DNA from: a virus
DNA: 56,895 bases
IMG/VR virus record: IMGVR_UViG_3300025400_000022
Coordinates: 1-56,895 of that record
Direction: 5' to 3' (one strand)
In this document: one piece after another, positions 504 to 13,499 of the stretch
Numbering within the stretch: the first letter of the stretch is position 1
How the letters are laid out: each line of letters starts with the position of its first letter
Made by a program: the position numbers and the translations under genes
The notes under the pieces: generated by a model
What the model was told of the DNA's origin: nothing
What the model saw: only the letters and a program-made list of their open reading frames with translations
Database searches by the model: none

Positions 504-554
504 TTGACTTTCTTCCCTGCACCTGCCATAATGGATACGTCGGGGAAAAGCCCC
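504..554 (+). promoter_or_regulatory. Rightward promoter and 5' mRNA hairpin, unit 2
   Basis: TTGACT (504-509), 17 bp, CATAAT (527-532). The expected start is near 539, so the mRNA begins with the hairpin GGGG-AAAAG-CCCC (542-554), then the ribosome site AAAGGAG (558-564) and ATG at 570. The -10 region and the loop are shared with the other promoters of this arm. Confidence 0.75.
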
Positions 555-569
555 AACAAAGGAGATGAG

Positions 570-1001
570 ATGACCTACACCTACGAAACGCCTAAGGGCG
601 GAGTGTTCGAGAGCAACTATGCCCTCACAAAAGAACGTAGCGCCGACATTTGGTTCTGCGAAGGCGGTGGCATTGTAAACGCAATTGGAGACTACTACTA
701 TGGCAACGGTCGGGTGACTATCTACTGCTTGGGGGAGATGCGCCTAAACTTGGCAGACGGAACAGTCTGGCGAAGTGCTTGGGACTTGCCTAGCAACATC
801 ACTAACGACGAAGAACTAATGAACGTGTGGAGCGCCCCCGAAAACGACGTGGTGAACAACTGTTGGATAGAACTGTTCGACACCAGCGAGGGACAAGACG
901 TTGAGAACGAAGAGACCTACATCATTTGCGGGGACATTTGGGAAGCAATAGACGAAGCCCACGCCTACCTAGTGGCCACCTATCCAGAAGTTGAAGGGTA
1001 G
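570..1001 (+). CDS. Hypothetical protein, 143 aa
   Basis: The start is ATG 570, five bases after AAAGGAG; earlier in-frame starts lie inside the promoter. The protein is acidic with scattered Trp and Tyr and no signal peptide or membrane segment. I do not recognise a family. It is the only gene of its unit, flanked on both sides by promoter/array cassettes, so it is probably transcribed alone. Confidence 0.8.
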   Translation: MTYTYETPKGGVFESNYALTKERSADIWFCEGGGIVNAIGDYYYGNGRVTIYCLGEMRLNLADGTVWRSAWDLPSNITNDEELMNVWSAPENDVVNNCWIELFDTSEGQDVENEETYIICGDIWEAIDEAHAYLVATYPEVEG

Positions 1002-1012
1002 GTGGTGCAGGG

Positions 1013-1034
1013 TTCGCGTATACACACACGCGAA
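1013..1034. repeat. CGCG palindrome array 2 (short)
   Basis: This is the shortest array: one inverted repeat, TTCGCGT with ACGCGAA, eight bases apart. Its gap also lacks the leftward promoter and the AT-rich GGGGAAAAATTAT box found in most others, so it looks like a reduced cassette. Confidence 0.65.
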
Positions 1035-1057
1035 GAATCTCGAGGTATCTAGAAAAA

Positions 1058-1072
1058 AGATAGGGGGTATCT
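1058..1072. promoter_or_regulatory. AGATA-N5-TATCT dyad 2
   Basis: A perfect dyad with spacer GGGGG, centred at 1065. Here it lies 19 bp, not 29, upstream of the rightward -35, which is one helical turn closer; no leftward promoter is present. Another TATCT half-site lies at 1046-1050. Confidence 0.55.
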
Positions 1073-1083
1073 ACGAAAGTGAT

Positions 1084-1134
1084 TTGACTTTTTTCCCTGC
1101 ACCTGTCATAATGGATACATACCGAAAAGCGGTA
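1084..1134 (+). promoter_or_regulatory. Rightward promoter and 5' mRNA hairpin, unit 3
   Basis: TTGACT (1084-1089), 17 bp, CATAAT (1107-1112). The hairpin UACCG-AAAAG-CGGUA (1120-1134) begins at the expected transcription start. AAAGGAG (1141-1147) precedes ATG 1153. Confidence 0.75.
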
Positions 1135-1152
1135 TAACGAAAAGGAGAAACA

Positions 1153-1611
1153 ATGACCACAACCACTTACCCTGCTAAGGGAGTAATCACCTCTAGTTGC
1201 ACCTGCTACTACTGCCCTAGTTGCGAGATGACTTTCACGGACGACACCTATCCCGAAAACTGCGACTGCGGGACACCCTGCACACCTGCCTATGAGTCTT
1301 GCTCCGGCGAGTGCTGGGACTTCGCAACCGAAGACTTTGCCTACAACGCTTTTACTCCGTGGTGCTTGGCGAACGAGACCGACGAGTTCGCTATCTATGG
1401 TCGGCGTATGGGTTGGACTAACGGTAGCGGACACACGGGACGACTGACCGCGTTCAGGGAATTGCTGAACAACCTGACCCTGAACGGGGACTTCATTCTT
1501 CGCTGGGAGTTGAGCGAAGACAACAAGACCCTGACCGTCATTCGCTCTAGCCACGACGAAATGGGTGCGATGTTTGAGGTAGTGCCGTGGAATGAGGGAG
1601 ACGACGAGTAG
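1153..1611 (+). CDS. Cys-rich protein, probable zinc binder, 152 aa
   Basis: About nine Cys occur between residues 16 and 53, including CTC, CPSC and CDCG groups, followed by an acidic C-terminal part rich in Trp. The Cys spacing suits one or two zinc ribbons, but I cannot name a family. Start ATG 1153 follows AAAGGAG. It is a single-gene unit with its own promoter and leader hairpin. Role unknown; nucleic-acid or protein binding through zinc is a guess. Confidence 0.8.
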   Translation: MTTTTYPAKGVITSSCTCYYCPSCEMTFTDDTYPENCDCGTPCTPAYESCSGECWDFATEDFAYNAFTPWCLANETDEFAIYGRRMGWTNGSGHTGRLTAFRELLNNLTLNGDFILRWELSEDNKTLTVIRSSHDEMGAMFEVVPWNEGDDE

Positions 1612-1617
1612 GAGTAG

Positions 1618-1637
1618 GGTGGGGGGCGACCCCCACC
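1618..1637 (+). terminator. Stable hairpin with GCGA tetraloop
   Basis: GGTGGGGG (1618-1625) pairs with CCCCCACC (1630-1637) around GCGA, a GNRA-type tetraloop. It starts seven bases after the stop codon of the Cys-rich gene. There is no long T-run after it, so it may block exonucleases as much as stop polymerase. Confidence 0.45.
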
Positions 1638-1649
1638 TGAAACACCCCC

Positions 1650-1715
1650 TTCGCGTATGCCCGCATACACGCGAATCGCGTATCGCGTACACATACACGC
1701 GAACACGCACGCGAG
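1650..1715. repeat. CGCG palindrome array 3
   Basis: About six CGCG cores, with inverted repeats TTCGCGTATG/CATACACGCGAA and TCGCGTATCGCGTA. It is followed by the AT-rich box (1719-1746), which shares a stretch of more than 20 bp with the box at 403-424. Confidence 0.8.
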
Positions 1716-1741
1716 GAGATTTTACAAATAAAGTTGGGGAG

Positions 1742-1770
1742 ATTTTAGCACACGGGGCCACAAAAGTCAA
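1742..1770 (-). promoter_or_regulatory. Leftward promoter facing array 3
   Basis: Minus strand: TTGACT (1770-1765), 17 bp, TAAAAT (1747-1742). The RNA would enter the AT-rich box and array 3. No coding frame with a ribosome site follows. Confidence 0.5.
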
Positions 1771-1781
1771 GCATCAAAAGG

Positions 1782-1796
1782 AGATAGCCCCTATCT
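1782..1796. promoter_or_regulatory. AGATA-N5-TATCT dyad 3
   Basis: A perfect dyad with spacer GCCCC, centred at 1789. It is 19 bp from the leftward -35 edge (1770) and 29 bp from the rightward -35 (1818), the same as dyads 1 and 4. Confidence 0.6.
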
Positions 1797-1817
1797 CAAA
1801 AATAGTTGGAAAACGAT

Positions 1818-1871
1818 TTGACTTTTGCCCCGACCTATGGCATACTAGTTAGGTCGAGGAAACGCCGAGAC
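1818..1871 (+). promoter_or_regulatory. Rightward promoter and 5' hairpin, unit 4
   Basis: TTGACT (1818-1823), 17 bp, CATACT (1841-1846). The 5' hairpin (1853-1871) is GUC, then tandem G-A/A-G mismatches, then GG, loop AAACG, CC and GAC. Tandem sheared G-A pairs would keep the stem continuous. A GGATTACAACA ribosome-site region precedes ATG 1895. Confidence 0.65.
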
Positions 1872-1894
1872 AAACTACCGAAAGGATTACAACA

Positions 1895-2335
1895 ATGGAA
1901 CACGTCACTTACGGCACTGAGGTTGCCTCCGAGTTCACGCCCACTACCACCGCCGAGTTGGCGTTGGAAAACCGTGAGCGTGCAGTTGGGGTCAAGGAGC
2001 GTGCCATCACCGCTAAGGAGAATGACCTCTCCGAGCGTGAAGCATACCTCTCAAATGTCAAGGGTCAGATTATTGAGTTGGCTAAGTCCCTGATGGGTGA
2101 TGACGTTATTGTCGTTCAGCGTGAAGACTTTGATACTTTGGTTGATTTGGTGGAGACGGCTATCTCTAACTCCGAGGATAGCAAGGCGGCTATTGAAGAT
2201 TTGCAGTCTGAAATCTATGACCTGAAGCGGAACGCCGACAGCGTTGAGAGTAGCGCCGAAGATGCAAGTAGCAACCTTGAGAGTTCGCTTGCGGACTTGG
2301 AGAACGCCCTAGACAACCTGAAGGGTCTCGCTTAG
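1895..2335 (+). CDS. Coiled-coil protein, 146 aa
   Basis: The protein is acidic and almost entirely helical by composition. Residues ~22-70 and ~85-143 show long runs of Glu, Lys, Ala and Leu with heptad-like spacing and no Cys or Trp. It looks like a coiled-coil oligomer or binding protein. Start ATG 1895 lies about 9 bases after AAAGGA. Single-gene unit with its own promoter and leader hairpin. No family recognised. Confidence 0.8.
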   Translation: MEHVTYGTEVASEFTPTTTAELALENRERAVGVKERAITAKENDLSEREAYLSNVKGQIIELAKSLMGDDVIVVQREDFDTLVDLVETAISNSEDSKAAIEDLQSEIYDLKRNADSVESSAEDASSNLESSLADLENALDNLKGLA

Positions 2336-2345
2336 GCAACGGGTA

Positions 2346-2371
2346 GGGGGTTGGGCGCAAGCCCGACCCCC
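2346..2371 (+). terminator. GC-rich hairpin with GCAA tetraloop
   Basis: An eleven-pair stem (2346-2356 with 2361-2371, one G-T pair) is capped by GCAA, a GNRA loop. A second small CCCC/GGGG hairpin and ATTT follow, directly before array 4. Probable end of the coiled-coil gene transcript. Confidence 0.6.
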
Positions 2372-2391
2372 GATAACCCCGTTGGGGGCAT

Positions 2392-2442
2392 TTCGCGTAT
2401 GTAGGCACGCGATTCGCGTATCGCGTACGTATGCACGCGAAG
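2392..2442. repeat. CGCG palindrome array 4
   Basis: Begins TTTCGCGTATG and ends GCACGCGAA, with ACGCGATTCGCGT in the middle, a perfect palindrome around one base. The same family as the other six arrays. Confidence 0.8.
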
Positions 2443-2475
2443 CGACCCGAGGATTTTTAGAAAACGTATGGGGAA

Positions 2476-2504
2476 ATTATACCATAGGCCACACCAAAAG
2501 TCAA
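2476..2504 (-). promoter_or_regulatory. Leftward promoter facing array 4
   Basis: Minus strand: TTGACT (2504-2499), 17 bp, TGG plus TATAAT (2481-2476). The transcript would cross the AT-rich box and array 4; no gene lies on that strand. Confidence 0.6.
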
Positions 2505-2515
2505 GTATCAAAGGC

Positions 2516-2530
2516 AGATAGTCCCTATCT
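2516..2530. promoter_or_regulatory. AGATA-N5-TATCT dyad 4
   Basis: A perfect dyad with spacer GTCCC, centred at 2523: 19 bp from the leftward -35 edge (2504) and 29 bp from the rightward -35 (2552). Confidence 0.6.
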
Positions 2531-2551
2531 AAAAAAAAGATGCGTTTTGAC

Positions 2552-2603
2552 TTGACAGCGACGCCGAGACCTGTCATAATGGATACGTTCCGAAATGCGG
2601 AGC
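2552..2603 (+). promoter_or_regulatory. Rightward promoter and 5' hairpin for the antirestriction gene
   Basis: TTGACA (2552-2557), 17 bp, CATAAT (2575-2580). Leader hairpin GUUCCG-AAAUG-CGGAGC (2587-2603; one U-G pair). AAAGGAG then precedes ATG 2626. The loop differs from AAAAG at two positions while the stem stays paired. Confidence 0.75.
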
Positions 2604-2625
2604 AACTAATCAAAGGAGCAAGCAA

Positions 2626-3516
2626 ATGAGCAAGACCGCTTACGAGGTAGTCGCCCAGACTATCATCAAGCAACTGGAAAACAACGTCGCACCGTGGCGC
2701 AAGGAATGGATAGCCTACGGATACAAGCCTAAGTCAATGAGCAGTGGCAAGACCTACAAGGGTATGAACTTTATGCTCTTGATGTTTGAGGCTATGGACA
2801 AGGGCTACGAAAGCCCGTGGTGGGGAACGTTCAAGCAGATTACCGAGCGTGGAGGCGTGGTCACGAAGGGCGAGAGGGGCACTCCCGTAGTCCTGTGGAA
2901 GCAGTTTGAGACCGAAAACGCTGACGGGGACAAGAAGAAGGCGGTGGTGATGCGCTACTTCACCGTGTTCAACGCCCAGCAAGCGACGTGGGAAGACGGG
3001 AAAGCGCCAGCCTACGATAAGCCCGTTGCCCGTGATGCCGTTGCAGTCATTGAGGGGGCGCAGAGCATTATGGACAACTACTTCGCCCGTGACAATGCAC
3101 CGAGCCTAGCCTTTGGTGGAAACCGAGCCTACTACTCACCTAGTCGAGACGGTATCCAACTTCCCCAGCAGTCCAACTTCGTGAGCGATAGTTCGTTCTA
3201 TGCAACGGCGTTTCACGAGATGGGTCACTCAACCGGTCACAAGTCACGCCTAAACCGTGACGGCGTCGTGGAAAACCACTACTTCGGTAGCGAACTCTAC
3301 AGCGAAGAGGAATTGGTGGCAGAGTTCACGAGTGCGTTTTTGTGCAGTGAAACCGGTGTTTTGCCCGAGACACTGGACAACAGCACCGCTTACATCAAGT
3401 CTTGGCTGAAGGTTCTGAAGAACGACCCGAAGATGCTAGTAAAGGCAGTGGGTCGGGCGCAGAAGGCTACGAACTTCATCACCGGCGCAGAGACGGAGAC
3501 GGTGGAAGCCGAGTAG
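2626..3516 (+). CDS. ArdC-like antirestriction protein, 296 aa
   Basis: The N-terminal part (about residues 1-125) matches the ssDNA-binding domain of ArdC/TraC-type proteins: a helix beginning AYEVVAQTIIKQLE, then NVAPWRKEW and a Y-K-G-M-N motif. The C-terminal part is a zincin-like metallopeptidase domain with HEMGHSTGH (HExxH, about residue 198) and a downstream ELVAEFTSAF helix that supplies the third ligand in this family. ArdC proteins are carried by plasmids and phages and protect incoming DNA against restriction. Length is typical. It is the only gene of its unit, with a strong promoter, which fits early expression right after injection. Confidence 0.85.
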   Translation: MSKTAYEVVAQTIIKQLENNVAPWRKEWIAYGYKPKSMSSGKTYKGMNFMLLMFEAMDKGYESPWWGTFKQITERGGVVTKGERGTPVVLWKQFETENADGDKKKAVVMRYFTVFNAQQATWEDGKAPAYDKPVARDAVAVIEGAQSIMDNYFARDNAPSLAFGGNRAYYSPSRDGIQLPQQSNFVSDSSFYATAFHEMGHSTGHKSRLNRDGVVENHYFGSELYSEEELVAEFTSAFLCSETGVLPETLDNSTAYIKSWLKVLKNDPKMLVKAVGRAQKATNFITGAETETVEAE

Positions 3517-3522
3517 TGGCAG

Positions 3523-3567
3523 GGGGTCGGGGCGAACGTGTGTTCGCTCCGGCTCCGCCATTTTTTT
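3523..3567 (+). terminator. Intrinsic terminator after the antirestriction gene
   Basis: A 15-pair stem (3523-3537 with 3542-3556, a few G-T pairs) with loop GTGT, then GCCA and seven T (3561-3567). The T-run runs straight into CGCG array 5. This is the clearest intrinsic terminator of the left arm. Confidence 0.8.
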
Positions 3568-3623
3568 CGCGTGCGTGTATACGCGAATCGCGTAGGCGCG
3601 GGTACGCGAATCGCGTACGCGAG
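3567..3623. repeat. CGCG palindrome array 5
   Basis: Contains two copies of TACGCGAATCGCGTA separated by a GGCGCGG step, bounded by TTCGCGT on the left and CGCGAGA on the right. Confidence 0.8.
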
Positions 3624-3698
3624 AGGATTTCTAAAGAAACTACGGGCGAAAGTAGCCAGTTTTTGAGAAAAAGATGGGGAAAAATTATCGCACGACTA

Positions 3699-3727
3699 AT
3701 TATAGCGTATGCGTGAGTGAAAGTCAA
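3699..3727 (-). promoter_or_regulatory. Leftward promoter facing array 5
   Basis: Minus strand: TTGACT (3727-3722), 17 bp, TATAAT (3704-3699). It lies 16 bp further right of the AT-rich box than in the other cassettes. No AGATA-N5-TATCT dyad is found here. Confidence 0.6.
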
Positions 3728-3741
3728 GAATAATTACGTGT

Positions 3742-3767
3742 CATACTGTAAGCCCCTCAGACGGGTT
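3742..3767 (+). promoter_or_regulatory. Possible extended -10 promoter for 3787 gene
   Basis: TGTCATACT (-10 CATACT, 3742-3747) resembles the other -10 elements, but no -35 lies 17 bp upstream. A weak hairpin AGCCC/GGGUU (3751-3755/3763-3767) follows, so the arrangement imitates the other units with a degraded -35. Confidence 0.35.
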
Positions 3768-3786
3768 ATTTATGGGAAGGTATCAG

Positions 3787-4077
3787 ATGACACAGAACTT
3801 GTATTTCGTGACGGCAGACGGGCTTATAGGCATCGCTGACGGGCTTTTGCTTGTGCGCAGTGACGAGGTGACTTGGACAGAGTTGCAGGAAGCCGTAGAG
3901 AAGCCTAATCCGAAGTCGCAGGTTATGCGACTGCTACAGCGTGACAAGGGTATTCGCCCAGACGCAGTTGCACTAACTAAGGCCACAGCGTTCACCACAC
4001 CAGAGGCGGCGCAGGAGTTCCGAGAAGACCTTGAAGAAAAAGGTTGGACTTGGCTTGACAAGGACACAAACCCCTGA
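3787..4077 (+). CDS. Hypothetical protein, 96 aa
   Basis: ATG 3787 is preferred over ATG 3772 because GGGAAGG (3774-3780) sits six bases before it. The protein is mixed alpha/beta with an LIGIADGLLLV hydrophobic stretch near the N-terminus that is too short and interrupted to be a membrane segment. A promoter for the next unit lies inside its last 25 bases. No family recognised. Confidence 0.7.
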   Translation: MTQNLYFVTADGLIGIADGLLLVRSDEVTWTELQEAVEKPNPKSQVMRLLQRDKGIRPDAVALTKATAFTTPEAAQEFREDLEEKGWTWLDKDTNP

Positions 4078-4106
4078 TACAATGGTTGAGTACCGGAAAA
4101 GCCGGT
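4055..4106 (+). promoter_or_regulatory. Rightward promoter and 5' hairpin inside a gene end
   Basis: TTGACA (4055-4060), 17 bp, TACAAT (4078-4083). The -35 lies within the last codons of the upstream gene and the -10 directly follows its stop. Leader hairpin ACCGG-AAAAG-CCGGU (4092-4106). Confidence 0.75.
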
Positions 4107-4128
4107 GCTTTTATCAGAAGGGATTACC

Positions 4129-4515
4129 GTGGGAGACCGTGGAAACATCAAGTTAGTTAGTGAATACGGACAGCCGATTTACTTTTACACTCATTGGACT
4201 GCTTACCGACTGCCCGAAATTGTGGCGCAGGGGCTGGACAAGGGGCGTGACCGGTGGGGCGATGAGGACTACCTCAATCGTATCATCTTTCAGACGCTCC
4301 TCGGAGGCGACGAGAGCAACCTTTCTTACGGCATCAGTACCCGTGAGGCTGGCGACGCTTGGCGCTTGGTAGAAGTAGACCACGTAAAGGAAGAAGTTTC
4401 TATCTATGAGCGTGTCTACAGCGAAGACTTTGCGGACAGTCACTGGCGACCCGTCTATGAGCCTAAGTCGTTTCACGAGTTTGTCCTTGACTTTCTCCCC
4501 GTGGTAGCGGTATGA
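4129..4515 (+). CDS. Conserved-type hypothetical protein, 128 aa
   Basis: GTG 4129 follows AGAAGGGAT; the upstream in-frame GTG (4105) lies in the leader hairpin. The N-terminal motif IYFYTHWTAYRLPEI, followed by a DRWGDEDYLNRII motif, recalls a family of small actinobacterial and phage proteins of unknown role; this is memory of a pattern, not a search. It overlaps the next gene by four bases (ATGA), so the two are translated together. Confidence 0.75.
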   Translation: MGDRGNIKLVSEYGQPIYFYTHWTAYRLPEIVAQGLDKGRDRWGDEDYLNRIIFQTLLGGDESNLSYGISTREAGDAWRLVEVDHVKEEVSIYERVYSEDFADSHWRPVYEPKSFHEFVLDFLPVVAV

Positions 4516-4784
4516 TGAAGTTCGAGGATTGGTGGAACCAGTATCAGCCCCTAGATAATCATTTCCAATCTAGGGCATACTACTTTGTCAAGATGTTCGA
4601 GACCTACGGCGAGGAACTGGAGTTTGTTCAGGGTCAGCCCGTCGAGATGGTGTGGACGGAACTGGACGACGGAACCATTGTGAACGGCTACCACATTGTG
4701 AACAGAATGGGCTACTACATCACAGTCAAGCCGTGGAGCGAGGAAACTGTGGTCGAGGACGAAGAGTTGGAAGAATTGGACTAG
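4512..4784 (+). CDS. Hypothetical protein, 90 aa
   Basis: Starts in a 4-bp overlap with the previous stop. Acidic C-terminus (EDEELEELD), several Trp and Tyr, no membrane segment. A hairpin (4789-4811) follows its stop. No family recognised. Confidence 0.7.
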   Translation: MMKFEDWWNQYQPLDNHFQSRAYYFVKMFETYGEELEFVQGQPVEMVWTELDDGTIVNGYHIVNRMGYYITVKPWSEETVVEDEELEELD

Positions 4785-4788
4785 GAGG

Positions 4789-4811
4789 TTGCCCCCGAAG
4801 TTTGGGGGCAA
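4789..4811 (+). terminator. Hairpin TTGCCCCC/GGGGGCAA
   Basis: An eight-pair stem with loop GAAGTTT starts four bases after the stop codon of the 4512-4784 gene. There is only a short T-poor tail, so termination may be partial. Array 6 begins within ten bases. Confidence 0.55.
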
Positions 4812-4820
4812 TCTCCCCCT

Positions 4821-4884
4821 ATCGCGTGTGCGCATACGCGAAATCGCGTATCGCGTGGGCATGTACGCGAATCGCGTACGCGAA
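4821..4884. repeat. CGCG palindrome array 6
   Basis: Starts with the 20-base palindrome TCGCGTGTGC/GCATACGCGA (one G-T pair) and ends with TACGCGAATCGCGTACGCGAA. The cassette has an AT-rich box (4885-4912) but no leftward promoter and no dyad. Confidence 0.8.
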
Positions 4885-4915
4885 GAGTTTTTCAAAAAAA
4901 AATGGGGAAAATGAT

Positions 4916-4967
4916 TTGACATTGACGTCGGCGTGTGTCATACTGTTTGGGTCGAGAAAACGTCTCG
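4916..4967 (+). promoter_or_regulatory. Rightward promoter and 5' hairpin, unit 9
   Basis: TTGACA (4916-4921), 17 bp, CATACT (4939-4944). Leader hairpin CGAGA-AAACG-UCUCG (4953-4967), the most A-U rich stem of the set yet still perfectly paired. Confidence 0.75.
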
Positions 4968-4990
4968 GCAATTTACCGAAAGGATTACCA

Positions 4991-5197
4991 ATGGCGACAG
5001 CCACTAAGAAAGTTGTAAGCACCGAGGTTCAGGATACTGAAGATGACAGCCCTACGTCGTACAGCGTGACGGTAATGGTTGAGTACCGGTTTGACGTAGA
5101 TGCCGACGGCGAAGCGGAAGCGGAAGCCGAGGGCTGGCGCTACGAAGACTACAAGGGTTTTGCATCAGTATACAGCATTGACGTGGAGGAGAACTAA
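4991..5197 (+). CDS. Small acidic protein, 68 aa
   Basis: ATG 4991 follows AAAGGATTACCA. The C-terminal half carries a D/E/A-rich repeat (GEAEAEAEG) and aromatic residues. First gene of a four-gene run with 1-4 bp overlaps (4991-5674). No family recognised. Confidence 0.75.
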   Translation: MATATKKVVSTEVQDTEDDSPTSYSVTVMVEYRFDVDADGEAEAEAEGWRYEDYKGFASVYSIDVEEN

Positions 5198-5343
5198 TGA
5201 CCAACTACACCACTATTGAGCAGTTAGTAGAGGCGGTGCAGAAAGCACTCCCGAATTGCGACATTGACCTTGACAACGAGGGTCAGGTCATCATTTACAC
5301 CAACTATTCATTCATTGACGGCGTTCTAAAGGAGAGCGAATAA
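5197..5343 (+). CDS. Small protein, 48 aa
   Basis: Starts on the last base of the previous stop (TAATG) with GGAGGAG upstream. The pattern of a short helix followed by DIDLDNEGQVIIYTN resembles small phage proteins with one helix and a beta hairpin. Function unknown. Confidence 0.65.
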   Translation: MTNYTTIEQLVEAVQKALPNCDIDLDNEGQVIIYTNYSFIDGVLKESE

Positions 5344-5513
5344 TGGCAAAAATGTATGTAGGCTTTGACGGCAACTATGGTAGCGCCGAGGATTACGACC
5401 TCTTTATCTTCGACACCGAGGATTTTAGCGAGGCGCAACTGCACCTTTTTGATGAAGACCCCGCCGAGTTTTACCTACGGGCGACGAGCGACGACTGGGA
5501 GGGCTTAGAGTGA
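5343..5513 (+). CDS. Small acidic protein, 56 aa
   Basis: Begins in a TAATG overlap, preceded by AAGGAGAGCG. Very acidic (many Asp and Glu, one Lys, one Arg). The charge suggests it could act as a DNA mimic or binder of a basic partner, but nothing specific supports that. Confidence 0.6.
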   Translation: MAKMYVGFDGNYGSAEDYDLFIFDTEDFSEAQLHLFDEDPAEFYLRATSDDWEGLE

Positions 5514-5674
5514 GGAGCGCAACCGAGGCGTCGAGCGCCCTTATCCTATACGCCGAGCGCAAGTTTCACGGCGAGGAGACGGAAGCCAACGAACTGCTGT
5601 ATTCTTTGCTAGTAGAGATGCTACAGTGGAACGTAGCAGTCACGGACAAAGTTTTCGATTTCTTTGACCACTGA
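5510..5674 (+). CDS. Small helical protein, 54 aa
   Basis: The GTG start overlaps the previous stop by four bases (GTGA). Predominantly helical composition with ELLYSLLVEMLQW in the middle. The next promoter begins directly after its stop. Confidence 0.55.
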   Translation: MRSATEASSALILYAERKFHGEETEANELLYSLLVEMLQWNVAVTDKVFDFFDH

Positions 5675-5675
5675 C

Positions 5676-5727
5676 TTGACAAAGTAAAAAACCCCTGTTA
5701 TAATAGATGAGTACCGGAAAAGCCGGT
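5676..5727 (+). promoter_or_regulatory. Consensus promoter and 5' hairpin, unit 13
   Basis: TTGACA (5676-5681), exactly 17 bp, TATAAT (5699-5704): a perfect match to the sigma-70 consensus. Leader hairpin ACCGG-AAAAG-CCGGU (5713-5727), identical to that at 4092. Confidence 0.85.
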
Positions 5728-5746
5728 GCAGAGACAAAGGAGCATA

Positions 5747-6226
5747 ATGCACGTATTACATTTTATCGCAGTAGAGGCTGACAACGCCGAAGACGCAATC
5801 TCTCAAGTAGACATTGCTTTGACGCACGATGACAACCCCGTTTTTCCGTGGAGCGACTGGGCAGAAATCGGGGGGCGCTGGGAGGACGAGGGCGAGGTTC
5901 ACTGCTACGCAGACGACCCCACAAAGTTTGAGGACTTTTTGGAGCGTGCCCGTCTCAACCGAGTGAATGAAATCAAGTTTCTGTTGAGCAACATTGACAC
6001 CGAGGCAATCATTGAAGAAGTGCGCAACTTTGATGGCCGTGATGCCGGACGCAGTCTTGATTTTTACCATCTCCGTCAGGCTATTGCCATTGCCGAGGGC
6101 AACGGAAAGCACGATGCCTACTTCTACGACCTGAAAGAATGGTGCGAAGACTTCAAGTATCTCCGTGAGCGCATGGAAACAGACCCCACTCGTCAATTCT
6201 TAGTCTTGGTAGATTTTCACCACTAG
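5747..6226 (+). CDS. Hypothetical protein, 159 aa
   Basis: ATG 5747 follows AAAGGAG. An N-terminal beta-helix unit is followed by WSDWAEIGGRWEDEG (residues ~37-51), a motif I associate with small phage proteins of unknown role, and then long acidic helices. Single-gene unit under the strongest-looking promoter of the window. No catalytic motif is visible. Confidence 0.8.
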   Translation: MHVLHFIAVEADNAEDAISQVDIALTHDDNPVFPWSDWAEIGGRWEDEGEVHCYADDPTKFEDFLERARLNRVNEIKFLLSNIDTEAIIEEVRNFDGRDAGRSLDFYHLRQAIAIAEGNGKHDAYFYDLKEWCEDFKYLRERMETDPTRQFLVLVDFHH

Positions 6227-6229
6227 GAC

Positions 6230-6284
6230 TTGACAAAGCAAAAAACCCGTGGTACAATGGTTCATCACCGAAAAGCGGTGGTGA
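6230..6284 (+). promoter_or_regulatory. Rightward promoter and long 5' hairpin, unit 14
   Basis: TTGACA (6230-6235), 17 bp, TACAAT (6253-6258). The leader hairpin has core CACCG-AAAAG-CGGUG and extends to nine pairs (6262-6270 with 6276-6284), the longest stem in the set. It drives the five genes 6304-7166. Confidence 0.75.
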
Positions 6285-9334: not shown

Positions 9335-9603
9335 TAGTTATCCTTGTCGAGCACCGCTACGATGCCGGCAACTGGGACCTGAACGTACTTGACGCCGGCA
9401 ATCTCAACTGCGTATGCCAAACCGTGCTTGAAGACAACACTGTCGCCCTCACTGATGCCCTCAACGTCGGGGCCAACTGAGATAACCTCAGCAATGTCGG
9501 GCAGTGGTACTGCGCCCTGTGGAATTACGAGACCCGTCTCTGTGGTCTTTTCTTTGTGCTCCATGCGAAGAATCACATTGTCGCTAGTGGCCTTGAAAGC
9601 CAT
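9334..9603 (-). CDS. GroES-like co-chaperonin, 89 aa
   Basis: Features of the Cpn10 family can be seen: an N-terminal strand ending DNVILRM, a mobile loop with TTETGLVIPQGA (residues ~19-31), and the pattern VISVGPDVEGISEGDSVVF corresponding to the GroES core. It is slightly shorter than bacterial GroES (about 97 aa). By analogy with T4 gp31 it would replace host GroES on GroEL to fold a phage protein, perhaps the capsid protein; that is inference. No GroEL gene is in the window. A ribosome site GAAGGAG lies 6-7 bases before the ATG. Confidence 0.8.
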   Translation of the reverse strand: MAFKATSDNVILRMEHKEKTTETGLVIPQGAVPLPDIAEVISVGPDVEGISEGDSVVFKHGLAYAVEIAGVKYVQVPVAGIVAVLDKDN

Positions 9604-11684: not shown

Positions 11685-11737
11685 GAACGCCCCAATGCGT
11701 TCGATTCAAAGATACCACACCCTCGAGCCCGTGTCAA
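11685..11737 (-). promoter_or_regulatory. Promoter and 5' hairpin of the winged-helix gene
   Basis: Minus strand: TTGACA (11737-11732), 17 bp, TATCTT (11714-11709). The mRNA would begin with hairpin GAACGC-AUUGGG-GCGUUC (11702-11685). The position of the hairpin at the RNA start is the same as in the left arm, although the loop differs. Confidence 0.65.
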
Positions 11738-11872: not shown

Positions 11873-11926
11873 TTGACTGCGACGCTGGAAAATGTTAGAA
11901 TGGATGCGTTGCAGATAGGCTGTAAC
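11873..11926 (+). promoter_or_regulatory. Promoter and 5' hairpin of the 11947 operon
   Basis: TTGACT (11873-11878), 17 bp, TAGAAT (11896-11901). The mRNA begins with hairpin GUUGCAG-AUAGG-CUGUAAC (11908-11926; one G-U pair). The perfect palindrome GTTATAAGTATAAC (11830-11843) lies upstream and may be an operator. Confidence 0.65.
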
Positions 11927-12761: not shown

Positions 12762-13075
12762 TGGGAGTAAATCATCGCTGGACAGACGGAGAAGAGTCTT
12801 TGGCTGGAAGTCTAATCACCACGTTTGCAGTGGGAGAGTTAAAGTTGTTGGCATTGTCAGTTCCGGCTTCATCGTTGTCGTCAGGCAATTTTTATGACGT
12901 TATCGAGATGCCCGGAGGCACGACGCTTTATGTCTGCATTTCTCAAGACCACATCAAAGAACTGGTTTCAGACGTAGACGACCCGTACCAAGTTGGGTTT
13001 TCGTTTGGTGTCTTCATTGGCAACCTATTAACGTCGATTTATTTTGAACTTATGTCAGAAGCGGAAGATGACTAA
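12761..13075 (+). CDS. Hypothetical protein, 104 aa
   Basis: TAATG overlap, with AAAGGAGC before the start. A central hydrophobic part (VGFSFGVFIGNLLTSIYFEL, near the C-terminus) could be a buried helix or a weak membrane segment. No family recognised. Confidence 0.7.
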   Translation: MGVNHRWTDGEESLAGSLITTFAVGELKLLALSVPASSLSSGNFYDVIEMPGGTTLYVCISQDHIKELVSDVDDPYQVGFSFGVFIGNLLTSIYFELMSEAEDD

Positions 13076-13499
13076 AAAACTCACAAAGGAAGAGCGTTGG
13101 GAAGTTAGCGAACGCTGGCGCGCAAATGCAATCATTGAAAAGTCCGTTAGGGACGACAAGAATGTTATTGAAGAACTGACCTCTCACTTTGTTGCCCGCC
13201 GTTTGATTGAAGAATTGACCGGTGAGGAGGTTGTGCTGAACAAAAAGAATCGCCGGCAAGACCCTAATAAGGTCCTGCCGGCGTGGGGCAAAGAAAACGT
13301 TGGTCGAGAGATGACCACTGAAGAAATTCAAAACTCGCTTGGGGTAACTTACTCTATTGTAATAAAGTTGCTCAAGAACACCGACTACTTTTACAAGGTC
13401 AAGCGAGGGCTGTATAAAGTTTACGATGGTGCGGGAGACCGAGAAGCGGCTAAGGTCGCTAGCAAGAAAAAGGTTGATGCACCTGCTACACTGATTTAG
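13068..13499 (+). CDS. Putative DNA-binding protein, 143 aa
   Basis: ATG 13068 (MTKKLTKEER) overlaps the upstream stop by 8 bp; AAGCGGAAG lies before it. A basic helical N-terminus is followed at residues ~85-125 by a winged-helix-like unit: MTTEEIQNSLGVTYSIVIKL then FYKVKRGLYKV. Its C-terminus is Lys/Ala-rich. Likely a nucleic-acid binder, possibly the regulator of this operon. Confidence 0.65.
   Translation: MTKKLTKEERWEVSERWRANAIIEKSVRDDKNVIEELTSHFVARRLIEELTGEEVVLNKKNRRQDPNKVLPAWGKENVGREMTTEEIQNSLGVTYSIVIKLLKNTDYFYKVKRGLYKVYDGAGDREAAKVASKKKVDAPATLI

Follow-up and report, generated by a model that had tools for sequence, protein, structure and literature searches.

Covarying hairpins with a constrained five-nucleotide loop at the predicted RNA starts of a phage left arm

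Stem-loops of the ompA, papA (Escherichia coli) and aprE (Bacillus subtilis) type, located at the 5' terminus of the transcript, slow mRNA decay (PMC3997798, PMC7509114). Single-stranded 5' ends are required by RppH and RNase E, a requirement that accounts for the stabilising effect of 5' structure; the B. subtilis RppH needs at least two unpaired 5' nucleotides (PMC3997798). Here we describe a set of hairpins at the expected RNA starts of rightward promoters in the virus record IMGVR_UViG_3300025400_000022, whose full 56,895 bases are referred to as the window. As in ompA, papA and aprE, the leader up to the Shine-Dalgarno sequence is short, and the hairpin is predicted to lie at its very 5' end; unlike those single-gene cases, the element recurs across the phage with a conserved loop on stems of free sequence, and any stabilisation is here presumed.

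Comparison with described elements

Among described actinophage elements, the closest are the Extended Start-Associated Sequences (ESAS/SAS) of cluster K mycobacteriophages, inverted repeats that recur upstream of many small, non-structural genes and whose function is unproven; the ESAS consist of 17-bp repeats that follow a consensus, mostly with a 4–13 bp spacer, and are associated with the SAS GGGATAGGAGCCC (PMC3203893). In phage Pixie, the ESAS appear to overlap -35/-10-like sequences. Unlike ESAS, the window element lies past the -10, has a 5-nt loop and shows no stem consensus. Assignment to the cluster K ESAS failed, as the stems span 6–9 bp and share no sequence, and the 13-mer SAS GGGATAGGAGCCC is absent from the leaders, which carry ordinary Shine-Dalgarno sequences.

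The element further resembles the boxB hairpin of lambdoid nut sites (N antitermination) in its short stem, conserved purine-rich pentaloop, position in early leaders and lineage-specific loops. BoxB loops have the form G-N-R-N-A, and assignment to boxB/nut by this pentaloop failed, with a loop beginning with A and ending with G in 24/24 aligned hairpins. Unlike boxB, the A-x-A-x-G loop is closed by G-C, and the hairpin recurs at many distinct promoters, each time at the predicted RNA start. An N-like protein was not seen, though the phage proteins were not all screened systematically for such peptides. In the T4 gp43 operator, too, a protein reads bases of a hairpin loop (here, any reader is hypothetical), but that operator serves one autoregulated gene and its contacts overlap the ribosome binding site, whereas the window has many such leaders (PMC3014915). 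A hairpin early in the transcript could also be an attenuator or intrinsic terminator; this was rejected and assigned a negligible probability, because no U tract follows the stem and the bases up to the Shine-Dalgarno sequence are A/G-rich.

No Rfam family matched the window at gathering score. Among control actinophages, Hum25 and Schmidt lacked such promoters at the threshold used, and the right part of Pixie contained one, without a hairpin. A search of 84,980 bacterial and archaeal genomes for GGAAAAGCC after a strong promoter returned 15 matches with stems of mostly 2–3 bp, indicating that the element is not a general bacterial leader; a looser pattern scan mostly retrieved unrelated AT-rich phages without hairpins and was set aside. 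No description of such leaders was found in the literature searched, a partial coverage that is no proof of absence. We regard the element as a variant of 5'-terminal regulatory hairpins not described before in that literature, and do not assign it to any named family.

Leader hairpins and covariation of their stems

The late genes of the window (including major head protein, tail sheath and tape measure) are directed leftward, and the left arm consists of small genes directed rightward. Eight plus-strand sigma-70/extended -10 promoters (TTGACW-17-YAYAMT, with TG before the -10 in 8/8) were located in this arm, and at each of them a stem of about 7 bp with a 5-nt loop begins 6–8 nt past the -10, where the RNA is expected to start (Table 1). 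An earlier, sequence-only reading had reported eight such promoters with hairpins and loops of AAAAG (five), AAACG (two) and AAATG (one); all are present and the counts are exact. Seven of the stems show good pairing, at 6–7 of 7 positions, and hairpin 3 pairs only around a tandem G.A mismatch that it had not mentioned. It had also not included the hairpin after promoter 11873 (loop ATAGG) or a leftward one after promoter 11737 (6-nt loop). A hairpin-like stretch after 17431 (-) lies inside coding sequence and was left out of the count.

We evaluated pairing by scoring the best hairpin of each leader against dinucleotide shuffles of the same leader. The eight window leaders gave a mean score of 9.75, versus 3.16 ± 0.90 in shuffles (z = 7.3), and z values of 6.3, 8.1 and 6.3 were obtained for the relatives L154, L006 and L007; in each of the four genomes, 0/2000 shuffles were as high as the observed mean. 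Across the whole window, hairpins of like strength with an A-N-A-N-G loop were found at promoters in 8/11 cases on the plus strand and 0/7 on the minus strand. At 37 °C the predicted hairpin energies lie between -4 and -10 kcal/mol, and the hairpin is predicted to form in most of the 18 leaders folded (65 nt each).

Relatives were recovered from viral metagenome contigs, mostly fragments, through an ArdC-like protein, two small proteins and promoter-hairpin patterns. Same-phage duplicates were recognised (L002/L005/L154/L166; L006 with L160–L164, L171–L174, L178 and L195), and L201 and L211 were excluded from counts as single-promoter matches possibly due to chance. Six independent lineages resulted, all of which carry the element: the window (with L167), L168, L154, the L006 clade (with L189), L007 and L057. 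Orthologous leaders illustrate how the stems diverge. In the MFL-start gene family, the place of the hairpin is constant and its stem differs among the window (GTTGCAG-ATAGG-CTGTAAC), L007 (GTTGCGG-AAACG-CCGTAAC) and L168 (GCCACAA-AAGAG-TTGTGGC). The MHVLH gene leader reads GTACCGG-AAAAG-CCGGTGC in the window, ATACCG-AAAAG-CGGTAT in L154 and ATCAACG-ACAAG-CGTTGGT in L006; the same pattern is seen in the leaders of the ArdC-like gene and of the MSVE/MATAT gene. The MHVLH protein had no match in bacterial genomes.

An alignment of 24 distinct 19-nt hairpins, gapless and drawn from five lineages, was used for covariation analysis. Paired cells amounted to 92.3% (57% when shuffled), both-side changes occurred at 7/7 stem pairs, and 57 cells were changed on both sides, versus 17.9 ± 3.3 in shuffles. 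The covariation score of 0.928 (0.254 shuffled) dropped to 0.06–0.35 when partners were slid, and RNAalifold recovered the same seven pairs. When the 3' arms were re-dealt between hairpins, 127 ± 8.5 pairs resulted versus 232/252 observed, a comparison biased upward because the hairpins were located by pairing; the per-leader dinucleotide shuffle guards against this bias. Furthermore, G-U wobbles (24) outnumbered A-C mismatches (5), a ratio that indicates sense RNA and is not expected for the opposite strand or for DNA. The sequence-only reading had argued for a selected RNA structure from stems that change with pairing kept, and had named covariation over homologous leaders of relatives as its test; that test was passed, with compensation at all seven pairs and wobbles fitting sense RNA only. 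These results show, with high confidence, that the hairpin structure is kept by selection on RNA.

The same data bear on two explanations without RNA selection at the leader. A near-palindrome at +1 to +19 occupies a classic operator position, but a DNA operator or cruciform was rejected as very improbable: half-sites vary between promoters with pairing kept, the common wobble pairs fit one strand only, and the loop has a single, constant orientation relative to all promoters. Chance, or common ancestry of copied promoter cassettes, is favoured by the mutual similarity of the L006 promoters, which shows that cassettes do get copied; it was nevertheless rejected as having almost no probability, given pairing z values of 6–8 in four genomes, compensatory changes at all pairs, and window -35/-10 spacers that are 36% identical while the loops are 82% identical.

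Other leaders in the relatives also begin with hairpins. ERF-type recombinase genes of three relatives have start hairpins with other loops (L154 17694, L156 10889, L157 7264 (-)), and the window ERF-type leader (promoter 20671) has none. In the more distant relatives L008 (1069) and L159 (2004, -), the MHVLLVF gene begins with G-rich hairpins with A-rich loops of 6–7 nt.

Loop constraint, position and possible roles

The loop is far more constrained than its surroundings, with between-genome identity of 0.76 for the loop, 0.43 for the stem arms and 0.32 for the -35/-10 spacer. In the main class, loop positions 1, 3 and 5 were A, A and G in 27/27 rows of the loop comparison; the only departure, a G at position 3, is that of L168 in the covariation alignment. 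The closing pair was G-C in nearly all hairpins. Loops follow lineage: ACAAG occurs in 5/5 start-proximal hairpins of the L006 clade, AAACG in 3/3 of L057, and mostly AAAAG elsewhere. Permutation of lineage labels gave P = 0.003; as promoters that share a genome are not independent, we take the uniformity by lineage as suggestive. Two stems (ATCAACG/CGTTGGT and ATCAGGG/CCCTGCT) carry AAAAG in L154 and ACAAG in L006/L162.

L006 has a second hairpin class, with TATAGT-like promoters, a stem of mostly GUUUGC/GCAAAC and the loop AAGUA, and these hairpins start 10–12 nt past the -10; the two loop classes follow the -10 variants, TATACT with ACAAG and TATAGT with AAGTA. About 11 copies of the AAGUA class lie in L006 65–6953, their stems preceded by a conserved UAUYRA-like stretch.

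The main-class loop begins 12–14 nt past the -10 and lies anywhere between 24 and 37 nt from the start codon. The fixed -10 distance and variable start-codon distance indicate anchoring to the RNA start rather than to the gene, which fits a 5'-end or early-transcription role better than one in translation. A role in translation, such as that of an insulator holding the Shine-Dalgarno sequence accessible or of a ribosome standby site, would suit a hairpin placed just upstream of the Shine-Dalgarno sequence in a short leader in all cases, as well as the near-constant 24–27 nt to the start codon in 10/11 AAGTA-class copies of L006; the main-class spacing argues against it, and we consider such a role improbable.

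Our preferred mechanism, proposed tentatively, is a 5'-end shield with the loop as an added folding or recognition feature. The early transcript would begin, at or within 1–2 nt of its first base, with the roughly 7-bp hairpin and its A-x-A-x-G pentaloop (the start being predicted), followed by a short stretch, the Shine-Dalgarno sequence and the start codon. The paired 5' end would be a poor substrate for 5'-end-dependent decay by the host (RppH-type pyrophosphohydrolase, RNase J or RNase E), and the fixed loop would add a folding or recognition feature by which the early mRNAs of the phage may be handled as a group. The data show the placement of the hairpin with respect to the promoter, its pairing, its covariation and the constraint on its loop; we infer the RNA start, the protection and any loop-reading factor. 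Several points weigh against this shield: a fixed loop is needless for a pure shield; the AAGUA class of L006, given its position, would leave about 5 unpaired 5' nucleotides; the hairpin is not the dominant fold in its 65-nt context for 2/18 leaders (window 6230, L154 5274); and the start of the RNA is a prediction based on the -10.

The loop constraint that a shield alone leaves unexplained points to a loop reader. The hairpin may accordingly be mainly a binding site, its pentaloop read on any stem by a phage or host protein to form an early regulon acting through translation, processivity or timed decay, a possibility we take seriously while leaning against it. The near-fixed loop positions on free stems, the lineage permutation, the identical stems with different loops in L154 and L006/L162, and the two L006 loop classes that track two -10 variants all fit this explanation. 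Conversely, within-genome cassette copying, a kinship the permutation ignores, could homogenise loops too; AAACG, AAATG and ATAGG loops coexist within one phage; and no RNA-binding candidate was found. Structure prediction was applied to a basic 143-aa protein of unassigned family (window 13068–13496, +), kept in relatives, as a potential RNA binder; the model weakly resembles a winged-helix DNA binder. A more specific version, in which a lineage-specific reader binds a 5' hairpin tag shared by the early mRNAs of a group of uncultured phages and the two tag classes of L006 would define two regulons, seems to us unlikely. Taken together, position favours a 5'-end role and the loop data favour some loop recognition; shield and loop reader may both hold.

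If true, the 5'-end mechanism would amount to an element akin to a structural cap at the 5' ends of mRNAs across the phage, in viruses whose uncultured hosts are probably actinobacterial. Its predictions for stem and loop are clean and separable. The loop appears to have been changed concertedly in the relatives, offering a route to hunt for a loop-reading factor, and the stems, which differ in sequence, supply a ready set of leader variants with which to test the effect of a paired 5' end on mRNA life.

Phage setting and neighbouring features

Among 50,697 phage records, we found neither a near-identical DNA record nor a relative of the window head protein. The replication genes share less than 60% identity with their counterparts in Mycobacterium, Gordonia, Arthrobacter and other phages, and these low-identity matches, mostly to actinophages, suggest that the host probably belongs to the Actinobacteria. 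The phage also encodes a Cpn10 (GroES-like) chaperonin (window 9337–9603, -), which is kept in relatives.

Table 1 Promoters, leader hairpins and intergenic features of the window
Feature	Position	Strand	Details
Promoter 1	504..532	+	-35 TTGACT, TG-CATAAT
Leader hairpin 1	539..557	+	core GGGG-AAAAG-CCCC (542-554), one C.A mismatch in outer pairs
Promoter 2	1084..1112	+	
Leader hairpin 2	1119..1135	+	ATACCG-AAAAG-CGGTAT
Promoter 3	1818..1846	+	
Leader hairpin 3	1853..1871	+	GTC-GA-GG AAACG CC-GA-GAC, tandem G.A mismatch
Promoter 4	2552..2580	+	ArdC-like gene
Leader hairpin 4	2587..2603	+	GTTCCG-AAATG-CGGAGC
Promoter 5	4055..4083	+	
Leader hairpin 5	4090..4108	+	GTACCGG-AAAAG-CCGGTGC
Promoter 6	4916..4944	+	
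Leader hairpin 6	4951..4969	+	GTCGAGA-AAACG-TCTCGGC
Promoter 7	5676..5704	+	perfect TTGACA-17-TATAAT
Leader hairpin 7	5711..5729	+	GTACCGG-AAAAG-CCGGTGC
Promoter 8	6230..6258	+	
Leader hairpin 8	6264..6282	+	ATCACCG-AAAAG-CGGTGGT, extendable to 6262-6284
Promoter 9	11873..11901	+	beyond the range of the sequence-only reading
Leader hairpin 9	11908..11926	+	GTTGCAG-ATAGG-CTGTAAC
Leftward leader hairpin	11685..11702	-	GAACGC-ATTGGG-GCGTTC, 6-nt loop, outlier; after promoter 11737-11709
CGCG near-palindrome clusters	325-395, 1655-1715, 2385-2450, 3560-3625, 4820-4885		also in L006 intergenic gaps
Leftward gap promoters	456-428, 1770-1742, 2504-2476, 3727-3699	-	

Each long intergenic gap of the left arm contains clusters of CGCG-rich near-palindromes, e.g. 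TCGCGTACGCGA, with alternating purine/pyrimidine stretches that are Z-DNA-prone by sequence, and upstream of the promoter these clusters adjoin a GGATTTTTAGAAAA-like motif. Four good leftward sigma-70-like promoters in the same gaps are aimed into the clusters, with no clear gene; their starts are C-rich, with CCCCAACTTTATTTGTAAAAT in two, and they are candidate sources of short non-coding RNAs.

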